From a virus, in IMG/VR virus record IMGVR_UViG_3300015372_000024, positions 1 to 24,081 of that record: DNA of 24,081 nt; one strand, 5' to 3'. Position 1 is the stretch's first letter, and the number at the start of each line of letters is the position of its first letter. This document shows, piece after piece, positions 4,691-24,081 of the stretch. A program made the translations under genes and the position numbers. The notes under the pieces were generated by a model. That model did no database searches. It was not told the DNA's origin and worked only from the letters and a program-made list of their open reading frames with translations.

Positions 4691-5348
4691 ATTCATGGAG
4701 CTGGTGTCACGGCAGGAGCCGCTGTGCAATGAACTCCGCCCCTACGTGAACGATAGCCTGCGCGGACTTGGGCAGGTCATCCACCACCCGCTGATTATTG
4801 AACTGTTCTATGACCCGGATCGGTGCGGGCTGGTCAACGCCCGCTATGCCGCCAAGGTTGAGGAACGGCAGCGCGCGTTGGATAATAAAAAGTGGACCAC
4901 TTATGTGTTCGTGCATGAGCGGCCCTACCGAGTGCCCGCCTTGCTCAAGGCGATGCATCTTGGCTGCGATGATCCATCGCTCGTGGCCAACGTGTGGGTC
5001 GATAGCGAGAATATCTGGCAGCATAAAAAGACGTGGATTCACATCTGGACCAAGATGCCTGATCCGCGCCTGACGATGGATGCCAATGAGCGCACCGTCT
5101 ACAACTGTATGCCGGATACGGTGACGATCCACCGGGGCATCAAGAACCCAAGACACAACCGCATCGGCCTGTCGTGGACACGCGACAAGGAACGGGCGGT
5201 CTGGTTCGCGCACCGGCTGGCAATGAAAACCGATAAGCCAACCGTGATCGATGCCACCGTCGAGAAGCGGCACGTTCTCGCGTTCTTCAACGGGCGCGGT
5301 GAGGAAGAAGTCGTGGTGTTGCCTAAGCATGTGAAGGTGACGCCATGA
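4674..5348 (+). CDS. Putative ADP-ribosyltransferase-fold protein (224 aa)
   Basis: The C-terminal third carries the ordered R-S-E signature of arginine-type ADP-ribosyltransferases: HRG with Arg154, GLSWT with Ser167-x-Thr169, a WFAHRL segment at 177-182, and GRGEEEVVV with Glu210-x-Glu212. In that class (T4 Alt/ModA and bacterial ART toxins) these positions hold NAD and the catalytic ExE pair; the products modify host proteins such as RNA polymerase. Residues 1-140 are unassigned and partly helical. The family call is by motif only, and the spacing should be tested structurally. Start 4674 follows GGAGG (4663-4667) by six bases; an upstream ATG at 4635 has no such site. It overlaps the membrane protein upstream and, by ATGA, the gene downstream. 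Confidence 0.6.
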   Translation: MKTQSEFMELVSRQEPLCNELRPYVNDSLRGLGQVIHHPLIIELFYDPDRCGLVNARYAAKVEERQRALDNKKWTTYVFVHERPYRVPALLKAMHLGCDDPSLVANVWVDSENIWQHKKTWIHIWTKMPDPRLTMDANERTVYNCMPDTVTIHRGIKNPRHNRIGLSWTRDKERAVWFAHRLAMKTDKPTVIDATVEKRHVLAFFNGRGEEEVVVLPKHVKVTP

Positions 5349-20716: not shown

Positions 20717-20750
20717 ATGACACCTGCCGAATAATGGGGCATTATGTCCC
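20717..20750 (+). promoter_or_regulatory. Sigma-70 promoter of the VPLPA-CTERM pair
   Basis: ATGACA (20717-20722; five of six with TTGACA), a 17-base spacer, and CATTAT (20740-20745) running into ATTATGTCC. It is the best -35 of the three related promoters. It overlaps the end of the preceding gene by almost nothing and is 38 bases upstream of the start at 20778, giving the pair independent expression. Confidence 0.65.
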
Positions 20751-20763
20751 CGTGGCAACAATA

Positions 20764-20775
20764 GGAGAATTCTCC
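20764..20775 (+). promoter_or_regulatory. Palindromic ribosome-binding site
   Basis: GGAGAATTCTCC is a perfect 12-base palindrome containing the Shine-Dalgarno GGAG, only two bases from the start codon. In RNA it can fold on itself (GGAG with CTCC), which could lower or regulate translation. A DNA operator is the alternative. Confidence 0.45.
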
Positions 20776-20777
20776 CT

Positions 20778-21551
20778 ATGAAGAAACTCGGACTGCTCAC
20801 GGGCATGGCCATGCTCTTGAGTTGCGGGACAGGTCAGGCCGTCACGCTTGGCGGTCAGAACTGGACCTCTACTGGCACCGTATTGACACTGTCTCCGACA
20901 GTGCCAAGCGGCAATCAACCACTGAACATTCAGTGCATTATCTGCGGTGATAATCAGCCGCAGCAACAAGCGGACTTCGGCTACACCAACTTCCACAACA
21001 CTGGCTCGATGAGTGACATTCTGTACTTCTCGACCAATGTGGCGGGAGGCGGCAACCCCGGAGCAGACACGGTCGGCATCGGCTATGATGGCTCATTCTT
21101 ACGCGACTACATCGCCGCTCACGGCAGCGTCAATCTGACCTTTCAGGTCGGCATCGACGTGAACGACGCCGGTAAAACACCGCAGGTTCTGGAAAGTTTT
21201 TATCTCCTGAACCTGACGCAGCATAAGGTCTTGGCATCGTTTCAAGGGCCAGCAGACATTGGCTCGCAGAACAACGGGACCGGCTTTCCTGACTTCATCT
21301 TGGAAGGCTTCGACCTCAACTTCGGCACGGACTTCGTCCTTGGCGATCAGTTGATCTTCTTCGCTCGCATCAGCAATGCGAGCGATGGTCCGGACTCATT
21401 CTTCTTGATTCCGAATCAGGAAATCGTCACGCCGATTCCAGCAGCCGTATGGCTGTTTGGCAGCGGCTTAGCTGGCCTCGGCGTACTCGCGCGTCGTCGG
21501 CGCAAGCAGAAGCAAGTTTCCACACCTGTTGATGCACCGCTCGCATCATAA
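20778..21551 (+). CDS. Secreted protein with VPLPA-CTERM sorting signal (257 aa)
   Basis: The N-terminal signal peptide (residues 1-21, KKLGLLTGMAMLLSCGTGQA) is followed by a Gly/Asn/Thr-rich beta-type ectodomain with a CIIC pair (53-56). The C-terminus has PIPAAVWLFGSGLAGLGVLA (219-238), then RRRRKQ. That is the three-part PEP-CTERM/VPLPA-CTERM arrangement: motif, hydrophobic helix, Arg cluster. Host exosortases cut such tails and place proteins on the surface or in biofilm matrix. Twelve residues follow the Arg cluster, slightly longer than usual. Base composition is lower in GC and richer in Asn/Thr than the neighbours. No exosortase is in the window, so the host would have to supply it. 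Confidence 0.88.
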   Translation: MKKLGLLTGMAMLLSCGTGQAVTLGGQNWTSTGTVLTLSPTVPSGNQPLNIQCIICGDNQPQQQADFGYTNFHNTGSMSDILYFSTNVAGGGNPGADTVGIGYDGSFLRDYIAAHGSVNLTFQVGIDVNDAGKTPQVLESFYLLNLTQHKVLASFQGPADIGSQNNGTGFPDFILEGFDLNFGTDFVLGDQLIFFARISNASDGPDSFFLIPNQEIVTPIPAAVWLFGSGLAGLGVLARRRRKQKQVSTPVDAPLAS

Positions 21552-21598
21552 GGTGTCCAAAGCCCGTTATCCGGTGCGGGTGGGAAGAACACCGGGTG

Positions 21599-21614
21599 CT
21601 TTCTAGCTAGAAAG
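21599..21614. promoter_or_regulatory. 16-base perfect palindrome between the sorting-signal genes
   Basis: CTTTCTAGCTAGAAAG reads the same on both strands and ends ten bases before the ATG at 21624, abutting the AGAGAGG ribosome-binding site. It could be an operator controlling the second gene or, in RNA, a hairpin next to its ribosome-binding site. Just upstream CCGGTG and CACCGG (about 21571-21596) form a further repeat. Confidence 0.5.
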
Positions 21615-21623
21615 AGAGGCAAT

Positions 21624-22331
21624 ATGAGAAAGCTGTTACTTGCTACTGCCACCTTGCTGGCCATGTCGGTCAGCGCGATGGCTGGCACCATGAACCTGAT
21701 GCTTGATCAGGATAGTGGTGCGTTTACCCAAACGTTCTTGGGAGCGCCGGGTCAATCGACCTTCAACGCTACCAATGCTTCATTTGGTAACTTCAATATC
21801 GTCAACATCACCGGCAGCACGACACCCACTACGTCTGCTCCGATCCTGTTGACGAGTAATACGCTTGATGTGCAAACCACGACTACAACTGCGCACACCT
21901 TGCAAGTGTGGATCACAGCGAATGATCTCACCAGCCCAATTCAACTGGTCGATTTCTTCTCTGGCTTCACCAACGTCGCCCTGTCGAATGGATGGTCGGT
22001 CACGCTCGAAAGTCTCGTGAGCACGACCAATCAGATGTTCGCAGGAACGCAACTCGCCACCGACACCTTTGTCGGCGGCGTCATCCCCACCGTGTTCGCC
22101 TCCAACTTCAACGACCAATTCGATGTTGGCGACGGACCTTATTCACTGACCGCGCACTACACCATCCTCACGGATGGGCTTGGTCAGGCGAATAGCGGCA
22201 TCACCGTTTCAGGCGTGGAGGCAACTCCGCTTCCTGCGGCGGTGTGGATGTTTGGTGGCGGGCTTGCTGGCCTCGGCGCTCTGTTGCGTCGTCGCAAGAA
22301 ACAGCAGTCTGCTGAACCGCAGGCGGCATAA
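21624..22331 (+). CDS. Second secreted VPLPA-CTERM protein (235 aa)
   Basis: It has a clean signal peptide (RKLLLATATLLAMSVSAMA, cut near residue 20), a Thr/Asn/Ser-rich beta-type ectodomain without Cys (for example NFNIVNITGSTTPTTSAP and DVQTTTTTAHTLQVW), and the C-terminal signal TPLPAAVWMFGGGLAGLGAL (201-220) with an RRRKKQ cluster. Its tail is very similar to that of the preceding protein, while the ectodomains differ, so the pair probably arose by shared targeting rather than simple duplication. Expected fate: export, then processing by a host exosortase at the inner membrane. The pair, with its own promoter and terminator, looks like a lysogenic-conversion cassette. Confidence 0.88.
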   Translation: MRKLLLATATLLAMSVSAMAGTMNLMLDQDSGAFTQTFLGAPGQSTFNATNASFGNFNIVNITGSTTPTTSAPILLTSNTLDVQTTTTTAHTLQVWITANDLTSPIQLVDFFSGFTNVALSNGWSVTLESLVSTTNQMFAGTQLATDTFVGGVIPTVFASNFNDQFDVGDGPYSLTAHYTILTDGLGQANSGITVSGVEATPLPAAVWMFGGGLAGLGALLRRRKKQQSAEPQAA

Positions 22332-22338
22332 AGGCAAT

Positions 22339-22376
22339 ACCCGGCGCGGTGTGTGGCATCCGCGCCGGGTAATTTA
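22339..22376 (+). terminator. Intrinsic-type terminator after the sorting-signal pair
   Basis: ACCCGGCGCGG (22339-22349) and CCGCGCCGGGT (22360-22370) form a perfect 11-base-pair stem with a 10-base loop. The tail AATTTAA has few T residues, so efficiency may be moderate. Confidence 0.75.
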
Positions 22377-23091: not shown

Positions 23092-23688
23092 TCATTCATT
23101 CCATATGACACCGATGCCGTAATAATTGCCGGGAGCATACAATTTGAATTCCTTATAGCGGCGGTTTCGTTTTACCGCTTTCCAGATTTCCGGAGCGCCC
23201 ATCGTGGAACCATCGGCTGGCGGCGTATTGTTTCGCGCACTGACCCATGTGTTATTCCAAGCGATATCGTGGAAGCCGACGACCTTCGCCATAGGCCCGT
23301 AATTCTTCCAATCTGATAGGACGTATTCCGGCGAATGATTACCGTCGATGAACAGCGCATCATAGGGACCGAGCGCCGCCGCTCTGAGGATTATTTCCGG
23401 TTCGATGCTGTCACCGTAAATGAAATGCGCGTCATAACCGAGCGCGATAAGTTCTGCGATGCATTGCTCTAGGCTATCGCGCGCGTCTTGCCGGTCAACC
23501 ATGTTATCGATCGCGACAAGACGAGATCCCTTGGGCAGAGTTTTGGCTACGGTCCACAGCGAGCGCCCGTACATGGAGCCTATTTCCAGATAGGACATGA
23601 CGCCTTCATCATGCAGGATATTAAGAAAGGCTCCCCATTCGCGTGGCTCTTGCAACGGTGGTTGCGTGTAGCTTGGCTTGTCCATCAT
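23092..23688 (-). CDS. Class I SAM-dependent methyltransferase (198 aa)
   Basis: SAM motif I is YLEIGSMYGRSLWTVAKTLP (about 33-52), acidic motif II follows at LVAIDNM (57-63), and DALFIDGNHSPEYVLSDWKNYG (109-130) with VVGFHDIAW matches the Methyltransf_24/cephalosporin-hydroxylase-like group, which often acts on sugars or small molecules. The C-terminus is short and basic to aromatic (RRYKEFKLYAPGNYYGIG). The substrate is unknown; glycan or surface modification would fit the membrane and sorting-signal genes nearby. ATG 23688 overlaps the preceding stop (ATGA); ATG 23685 is better spaced from GAGG. Confidence 0.82.
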   Translation of the reverse strand: MMDKPSYTQPPLQEPREWGAFLNILHDEGVMSYLEIGSMYGRSLWTVAKTLPKGSRLVAIDNMVDRQDARDSLEQCIAELIALGYDAHFIYGDSIEPEIILRAAALGPYDALFIDGNHSPEYVLSDWKNYGPMAKVVGFHDIAWNNTWVSARNNTPPADGSTMGAPEIWKAVKRNRRYKEFKLYAPGNYYGIGVIWNE

Positions 23689-24081
23689 CGCCTCGACCTA
23701 AACAGCGCCACAAACTCCGGTAGCTTGCTGGCAAAAACAGACTCTAGCACACAGCTTCTGTCCTCGAATTTCTTCAGCCACCATCGGTCATCCTTGATAA
23801 TCAAATGCGCGTTGCGCCCATCGCGCAGTGAGCGGCCCGCCACCTTTTTTGATATGGCGATAAACAGATACTTGCCAGCCAATGACTGAAGATGATCGAG
23901 AACATTATCAAGATAGTCCGGCTCGATATGCTCAAGCACGTCGAGGCACACGACCATGTCAGCCGCTATCGGCAACCGGGAGAACGCGGGGATTGCGGGG
24001 TCACAGCACTGGACCGTGATGCCGCCGCCTAAATGCTTTGCCAGCAATCCCTTGCCGCAGCCGTAATCCAGAATCGTGAAG
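23685..24081 (-). CDS. SAM-dependent methyltransferase, 5' end cut by window
   Basis: The visible 131 residues begin with FTILDYGCGKGLLAKHL, SAM motif I, at the window edge; VVCLDVLEHIEPDYLDNVLDHL (about 44-65) is the motif IV region typical of class I (type 11/12-like) methyltransferases, and FIAISKKVAGRSL follows. The N-terminus lies outside. A TTG at 24047 would give a shorter product lacking motif I and is rejected. It is upstream of the other methyltransferase, with an ATGA overlap, so the two are one operon. Substrate unknown. Confidence 0.82.
   Translation of the reverse strand, partial: FTILDYGCGKGLLAKHLGGGITVQCCDPAIPAFSRLPIAADMVVCLDVLEHIEPDYLDNVLDHLQSLAGKYLFIAISKKVAGRSLRDGRNAHLIIKDDRWWLKKFEDRSCVLESVFASKLPEFVALFRSRR

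Follow-up and report, generated by a model that had tools for sequence, protein, structure and literature searches.

Phage morons are cargo genes of the lambda type. Bacteria, for their part, have a described system for sorting surface proteins by their C-termini: in the PEP-CTERM model (PMC1569441), the protein crosses the inner membrane by means of its signal peptide and has its motif at the periplasmic face, an EpsH-type exosortase is the predicted partner, and the system is linked to exopolysaccharide (EPS). The present locus touches both. It lies in IMG/VR virus record IMGVR_UViG_3300015372_000024, whose full 24,081 bases are called the window here, and consists of two adjacent genes, gene 1 and gene 2, whose products carry C-terminal tails of the VPLPA-CTERM variant of this signal. 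The presence of two phage-borne VPLPA-CTERM genes is confirmed. Together they probably form a surface-display cassette with which the phage uses its host's own sorting address through exchangeable tails, perhaps to mask receptors or glycans.

With the PEP-CTERM/exosortase system, in its VPLPA-CTERM variant (TIGR03370), the locus shares a signal peptide, a proline-rich motif, a transmembrane helix, a basic cluster and a score above the family cut-off. It differs in that the proteins are encoded by a virus, ectodomains swap tail types, and the cassettes are ordered pairs. Like morons, the genes occur singly or in pairs at varied sites of otherwise dissimilar phages, but here the promoter is at chance level, nine loci lie directly behind a terminase gene, and the tail varies among sorting types. 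The superinfection-exclusion lipoprotein Ltp of phage TP-J34 is also a phage-encoded exported surface protein; it is a lipoprotein of a Streptococcus phage (PMC3952083), whereas the proteins discussed here, at most putative exclusion factors, carry C-terminal sorting tails. A further comparison is offered by 13 TIGR03118 proteins counted among Yellowstone viral proteins of horizontal gene transfer, which have a putative exosortase interaction domain (PMC11003980, available part). These are likewise virus-encoded proteins with an exosortase-type C-terminal domain, but they belong to another family, and that part of the source does not describe tail exchange, pairing or host matching. A literature search, largely without subscription papers, returned no report of phage-encoded VPLPA/PEP-CTERM cassettes. 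Sorting tails and phage morons are already known; phage cassettes with interchangeable tails of host type were not found in print.

Two genes with alike sorting tails

The features of the locus are the following.

20717..20745, + strand: promoter-like hexamers, at chance level and not conserved
20778..21551, + strand: gene 1, open reading frame (ORF) of 257 amino acids (aa) with signal peptide, β-sandwich ectodomain (family 0), VPLPA-CTERM tail at aa 219-242 and a C-terminal extension
21432..21503, + strand: segment of gene 1 coding for the sorting tail, aa 219-242, PIPAAVWLFGSGLAGLGVLARRRR; TIGR03370 match, AlphaFold2 helix 222-243
21624..22331, + strand: gene 2, ORF of 235 aa with signal peptide, β-sandwich ectodomain (family 3) and VPLPA-CTERM tail at aa 202-225
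22227..22298, + strand: segment of gene 2 coding for the sorting tail, aa 202-225, PLPAAVWMFGGGLAGLGALLRRRK; TIGR03370 match
22338..22371, + strand: GC-rich hairpin behind gene 2, a possible terminator with a weak U-tract; -28.9 kcal/mol, z -3.6

Both products open with Lys/Arg and a hydrophobic segment, called as a signal peptide by a simple rule of charge and hydrophobicity rather than by SignalP, and both close with P-[IL]-P-AAVW[LM]F, a hydrophobic stretch and an Arg cluster. The VPLPA-CTERM model TIGR03370 of NCBIfam, with a curated cut-off of 25.35 bits, is passed by gene 1 at 28.1 bits (E 1.5e-6) and by gene 2 at 28.3 bits (E 1.2e-6). A transmembrane helix and basic cluster follow the motif as in other members of the class; the helix appears in the gene 1 model, and the tail of gene 2 is modeled with low confidence. 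The ectodomains belong to different families, as a profile comparison of families 0 and 3 gives a probability of only 0.9%. The original prediction of adjacent genes for exported proteins with distinct ectodomains and alike tails is thus upheld by the two ORFs on the + strand and by the passing of TIGR03370 by both.

The AlphaFold2 model of gene 1 is a β sandwich with a C-terminal helix and a mean predicted local distance difference test (pLDDT) score of 71. Foldseek found no match for it at E ≤ 0.001 in PDB or BFVD, and a search of solved structures by sequence gave none at E up to 1. Its best VIA match is a borderline one to a module of an Akkermansia enzyme (8pxu; Z 8.0, root-mean-square deviation (rmsd) 3.0, 117 residues aligned), below which the list holds several carbohydrate-binding modules (CBMs) and also viral capsid proteins and seipin. 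Gene 2 is again modeled as a β sandwich, and its best Foldseek match is Bdellovibrio Bd1399 (8okh) at E 8.1e-8, with CBM61 at 6.8e-6 and then adhesin and CBM4/CBM27 structures among others; VIA gives Z 10.6 (rmsd 3.2, 144 aligned), the next-best being 8.4. A carbohydrate-binding or adhesive role of the modeled ectodomains is plausible.

The gene 1 family, tail exchange and pairing

Relatives of gene 1 occur in 34 viral loci, one of which (L002) is the same phage as the window. They were seen neither in named phages (tblastn of both proteins against 50,697 records, E up to 10, no match) nor in a motif-based scan of 84,980 species genomes, which would pass over any relative that does not carry both motifs and gave 36 pattern stretches with no gene 1 relative. 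A plasmid search matched gene 2 only to PEP-CTERM proteins of Acidiphilium/Acidithiobacillus, at E 0.04 or worse. When the window is compared by default blastn with 40,000 of the 41,940 bases of virus record G002, gene 1 alone matches, at 88% over 684 columns; at higher sensitivity a single further piece, at 67%, is matched in another place. With neighbors that also differ among records, this is the behavior of a moron, as had been proposed. The places of insertion vary. Gene 1 sits 11-27 nt behind the gene for the terminase large subunit (TerL) in nine loci (L007, L009, L011, L012, L014, L016, L017, L019 and L021), the terminase being identified by Pfam in L007, L017 and L019 and by similarity cluster in the other six. 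In L017 it lies between this gene and a protease/capsid gene (Pfam), and the same neighbor clusters recur in other loci. L003 has it between a small terminase gene upstream (Pfam) and a large terminase gene downstream (cluster), while L008 and L020 have it behind a DNA polymerase A gene. The position beside the terminase gene in nine loci suggests that gene 1 is expressed there with the virion genes.

The tails of this family fall mainly into two classes: tail A, of the VPLPA type, and tail B, VPGPxxGAG[IL]PG...RRRR. Among 27 aligned relatives, the window included, 5 carry A, 20 carry B (VPGPxxGAG[IL]PGL...RRRR and near variants), 1 has a PEP-CTERM-like tail (L029) and 1 has VPLPAGLW (L032). 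All 54 invariant positions of the alignment lie within residues 25-212. On the ectodomain tree, the tail labels require at least four changes, and a single clade is rejected for the A rows (p-AU 0.029) as well as for the B rows (p-AU 0.005). In an NCBIfam comparison run on ten proteins, none of the eight with tail B (7 viral, 1 bacterial) rose over any cut-off. Exchange is also visible in the DNA. The L039 locus (6.9 kb) shares with the L008 phage (40,000 bases) only the signal-peptide segment (45 nt, 84%) and the tail segment (144 nt, 87%), and the L039 gene that shares both ends has an ectodomain unrelated to gene 1. L045, with an ectodomain of the L039 type, is related to the L008 phage over several kb in a different gene order. 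Since L039 and L008 share DNA at the gene ends only, it seems that passengers were swapped while the signal-peptide and tail ends were conserved. We also noticed an extension behind the Arg cluster, approximately WD[DEN]LPR[VL][DE]F[LM]PK, in L008, L039, L042, L045, L048 and L262, which represent four ectodomain families; it would be cytoplasmic if unprocessed.

A screen of other viral contigs with relaxed tail patterns, as the original prediction had proposed, returned at least 120 stretches for tail B and 106 for tail A. The 259 loci hold 269 tailed ORFs, 201 of them distinct and 184 of these with a signal peptide by the simple rule. Single-linkage clustering of 196 of the 201 (the other 5, with ectodomains under 60 aa, were dropped) gave 31 ectodomain clusters (17 singletons). 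The tails of the first five families are given below; the counts are drawn from among the matches listed, and phage genes were checked in part of the contigs.

Family 0 (gene 1): 13 A, 49 B, 1 C; 10 A and 37 B groups at 90% identity
Family 1: 5 A, 31 B; 4 A and 27 B groups at 90% identity
Family 2: 12 A, 8 B; 7 A and 8 B groups at 90% identity
Family 3 (gene 2): 2 A, 9 B; 2 A and 8 B groups at 90% identity
Family 4: 4 A, 6 B; 2 A and 4 B groups at 90% identity

Family 3 has ten members besides gene 2, and a GPDSF motif occurs in 50 of the 63 members of family 0. Profile comparison detected no relation among families 0-4; across families 0-9, the only clear relation joins 8 with 9 (88%), with a partial one between 0 and 5 (51%). 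Unrelated ectodomains in the same locus nevertheless carry the same class of tail. Two or more ectodomain families are present in 22 loci, and in every one of these the tail class agrees, a result equaled by 1 in 10,000 within-family label permutations, although the 22 include loci that are closely related (the six family-7 proteins, including those of L214, L224 and L254, all fall in one 90% group). An earlier, smaller count had given 7/7 (Fisher p 0.048). The original prediction had the phage using the host's sorting machinery, and the idea of host-matched tails is strengthened by a tail class that varies on constant ectodomains and agrees within loci. Gene order is almost as regular. Of 21 adjacent same-strand pairs, 20 include families 2, 3 or 4, which stand downstream in 19/20; the sole exception is the third gene of the three-gene cassette L198. 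Both regularities, in gene order and in tail class, had been noticed before they were counted. L018/L100 and L127 hold pairs that correspond to the one in the window (families 0 and 3 in each case; tails A/A in the window, B/B in the others), and the gene 2 ectodomains of the window and L018 are 28% identical at 28.9 bits, against a maximum of 21.2 in 200 shuffles.

The cassette had been proposed to act in lysogenic conversion, which the records do not bear out in general. A tyrosine integrase scores over cut-off in 1 of the 34 gene 1 records (L033) and nowhere in the window, with sub-threshold matches in L034 and L035; many of the records searched are fragments. In the eight gene 1 records that reach 40 kb, no integrase exceeds the cut-off. 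L033 is the one clear temperate case in the family, its integrase gene (573-1895) lying directly upstream of the gene 1 relative. For the other tailed families, 12 further records gave 1 integrase (L040, with related cassettes), and no serine recombinase was found in 16 records. There are temperate members, but among the records seen they are exceptions.

Tails in bacterial genomes and the proposed role of the cassette

Tail A, searched as a composite peptide, occurs in 36 of 369 sampled Gammaproteobacteria and in 1 of 289 Alphaproteobacteria (Fisher p 1e-8). The exosortase family PF09721 is over cut-off in 15/18 tail-A gammaproteobacterial genomes against 5/18 without the tail (p 0.002). The 18 tail-A genomes were taken from the 36, for the most part where a genome had several matches, and the other 18 from the top of the list of 333 without the tail. 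Tail B is found in metagenome-assembled genomes (MAGs) of Bradyrhizobium and other Alphaproteobacteria, on several different proteins (L063, L065, L068, L069, L073, L074, L076, L077). Of the 16 stretches with the tail-B genome pattern, 12 are judged to be tails, some on short or cut ORFs, and 4 are chance frames (L066, L067, L072, L075); exact copies of the pattern number 8 in G009, 5 in G007 and 1 in each of three other genomes, one of these being a chance frame. Two tail-B proteins of a Bradyrhizobium MAG (L077, L073) are encoded among genes for a sugar transferase, a polysaccharide export protein, an epimerase and a glycosyltransferase. Tail B is therefore best described as a candidate for an undescribed C-terminal sorting signal. 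One tail-B protein of this EPS locus matches the ectodomain profile of family 3 at 24.0 bits (maximum of 500 shuffles 6.6). In 397 genomes of the order of this MAG, the family 3 profile including the tail found matches in 7, nearly all to the tail region only. Two proteins of one alphaproteobacterial MAG (L063, L074) match the third gene of L198 with 51-52% identity over 207-212 aa. These bacterial relatives of family 3 and of the L198 gene indicate that host surface proteins were the source, or the model, of at least some cassette proteins.

The sequences show export signals, sorting tails, gene mobility, tail exchange, agreement of tails within loci and a nearly fixed order of genes. In the display model that we favor, a Sec-type signal peptide would export each cassette protein, and each would bear a β-sandwich ectodomain like those of glycan-binding and adhesive modules. 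The C-terminal tail would resemble those of surface proteins of the host group, which in the window means the VPLPA-CTERM type, read by exosortase in bacteria. Ectodomains stay constant across phages while the tail is swapped, presumably for the type that the phage's own host reads, so that the tail would serve as an interchangeable address label. We infer that in the infected cell the host sorting machinery treats the phage proteins as its own, processing them and delivering them to the envelope or exopolysaccharide. The likeliest benefit would be that receptors or glycans are masked, which could hold off superinfection or keep progeny from being lost on cell debris; masking is preferred because the phages are mostly without a detectable integrase and nine loci lie beside a terminase gene. 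A broader claim, on which we are evenly divided, is that modular two-protein display is widespread in phages of Proteobacteria, with unrelated ectodomains, a signal peptide of common type, the tails of both genes switching together with the host group, and tail B belonging to EPS-linked bradyrhizobial sorting without a known exosortase. If the display model is true, phages decorate infected cells through host sorting enzymes hitherto studied for bacterial EPS and biofilm proteins. The tails would then be a host marker readable from sequence for uncultured phages, and would point to substrates of exosortase variants and to tail B, a type that rose over no NCBIfam cut-off here. Because the genes are paired and passengers exchanged, the function lends itself to direct testing with one ectodomain, two tails and two hosts.

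A number of results weigh against the display model. The classical PEP-CTERM models are not passed: PF07589 of Pfam scores gene 1 at 13.2 and gene 2 at 14.7 against a cut-off of 20.7, and TIGR02595 of NCBIfam (classical Pro-Glu-Pro) scores them at 12.1 and 12.5 against 16. It is because of these misses that the tails are filed as the VPLPA variant, and the predicted match to sorting-signal hidden Markov models stands for VPLPA-CTERM and falls for classical PEP-CTERM. Even within the gene 1 family, the L008 tail is narrowly under the VPLPA cut-off (24.5 vs 25.35), and the best match of L029, PEPxxWA-CTERM, is under its own (28.7 vs 35). The tail-A genomes were searched by tail alone, and no match convincingly covers the C-terminal extension. 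PF09721 is found in 0/5 genomes with the tail-B pattern, all of them MAGs, and the label 'exosortase substrate' therefore cannot be taken for granted for all the tailed proteins; a different enzyme may act on tail B, or the tail may serve as an anchor that is left unprocessed. Plain blastp of the Bradyrhizobium ectodomain misses the relation to family 3 (E 0.45). As to the folds, the gene 1 match lies within the chance range for β sandwiches, and the Foldseek TM-scores of gene 2 with 8okh are low (0.34/0.44) for a model of mean pLDDT 67.5. The host group of the window phage is presumed, and receptor masking is a guess. By eye, a possible lipobox (LASC, LISC, LVSC) can also be seen in the class-A signal peptides of L008, L007 and L048; it is absent in L006 and L042.

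The principal competitor holds that the products are secreted adhesins that glue or reshape the exopolysaccharide of the infected cell, altering aggregation or biofilm rather than blocking phages. We consider this possible, if a good deal less probable than display. PMC1569441 connects PEP-CTERM proteins with EPS and PMC9012009 connects them with floc formation, the EPS locus of one MAG holds tail-B proteins, and the fold of gene 2 is like those of CBMs and adhesins, but the gain to phages that mostly have no detectable integrase is not clear. A plainer reading, and to us an unlikely one, takes the tail as an unprocessed transmembrane helix with a positive stop, its likeness to a sorting signal coming from the capture of host genes with anchors. 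The failure to find PF09721 in the tail-B genomes and the existence of bacterial relatives with the same tails would both fit. A generic anchor, however, would not need a pre-helix motif (PLPAAVWLFG, VPGPxxGAGxPG) kept across unrelated passengers, nor would five families need to switch between two discrete motif classes in step at each locus.

It is also conceivable, albeit improbable, that the tails act as a decoy that floods the host sorting enzyme and stops the display of the host's EPS and biofilm proteins, with the ectodomain of little importance. Tails of one class are indeed common to many passengers, and two tailed genes per cassette would raise the dose. Against this stand the ordered pairs and the strong conservation of ectodomains, with 54 invariant residues in 27 gene 1 relatives, as a pure decoy would let its ectodomains decay. 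That these are misbinned bacterial genes is already disfavored and very improbable indeed. Families 3 and 18 do have bacterial relatives, and phage genes were checked in only part of the surveyed contigs, but gene 1 of L017 lies among terminase and protease/capsid genes, neighbor clusters recur, the window has phage genes, and 84,980 species genomes scanned by motif gave no gene 1 relative.

Phage context and flanking signals

The view that the region is phage is borne out by its origin in a virus record, by matches of its genes to phage types and by a near-identical record that continues into tail genes. Phage-type matches in the window are Erf, a RecE-like exonuclease and NinB-like, O-like replication and ParB-like proteins; an AAA ATPase and a PAPS-reductase-like protein are encoded as well. 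From base 4731 of the window to its end, 19,351 bases match virus record G001 (40 kb) at 99.8% identity; beyond the shared part, G001 holds tail genes, including one for a tape measure protein by homology. The cassette lies at the end of the early region. Homologues of the ATPase and the tape measure protein are spread across many hosts. As host hints only, TerL of the tail-B phage L017 has its top matches in Roseibium and Agrobacterium phages (50%), and that of the tail-A phage L007 in Escherichia and Aeromonas phages (43%).

The flanking signals attributed to the cassette fare unevenly. The proposed promoter, ATGACA-17-CATTAT, is present, but the 2 such sites that were found compare with 1.5 on average in shuffled sequence, and DNA upstream of the five class-A genes compared cannot be aligned and shows no conserved promoter region. 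An own promoter is accordingly rejected as evidence. The terminator is supported by a strong hairpin at 22338-22371, which none of 200 shuffles equaled, and is weakened by what follows, UAAUUUAA instead of a clean U-run, and by its absence from the consensus-scan listing. Deviating composition holds for trinucleotides, with 2% of windows as far off, and not for GC content (0.556 vs a mean of 0.573, sd 0.024). Just upstream of gene 2, at 21599-21614 of the window, lies a perfect 16-base palindrome, CTTTCTAGCTAGAAAG.

Several neighboring genes may be noted. One ORF of the L008 phage (6910-9429) combines a uracil-DNA-glycosylase-like and a DNA polymerase A domain. Behind the cassette, on the - strand at 23092-24080 of the window, are two methyltransferase-like genes (Methyltransf_24 at E 6e-10, Methyltransf_23 below cut-off). 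The tail genes of G001 (L053, 12603-17383), the same phage as the window, include glycosyltransferase-like and methyltransferase-like genes that may modify glycans; in a Pfam batch of ten proteins, two of which rose over a cut-off, the L053 genes matched Glyco_transf_9 (E 8e-11) and Methyltransf_24, both over cut-off, and Glyco_transf_8 below its own.

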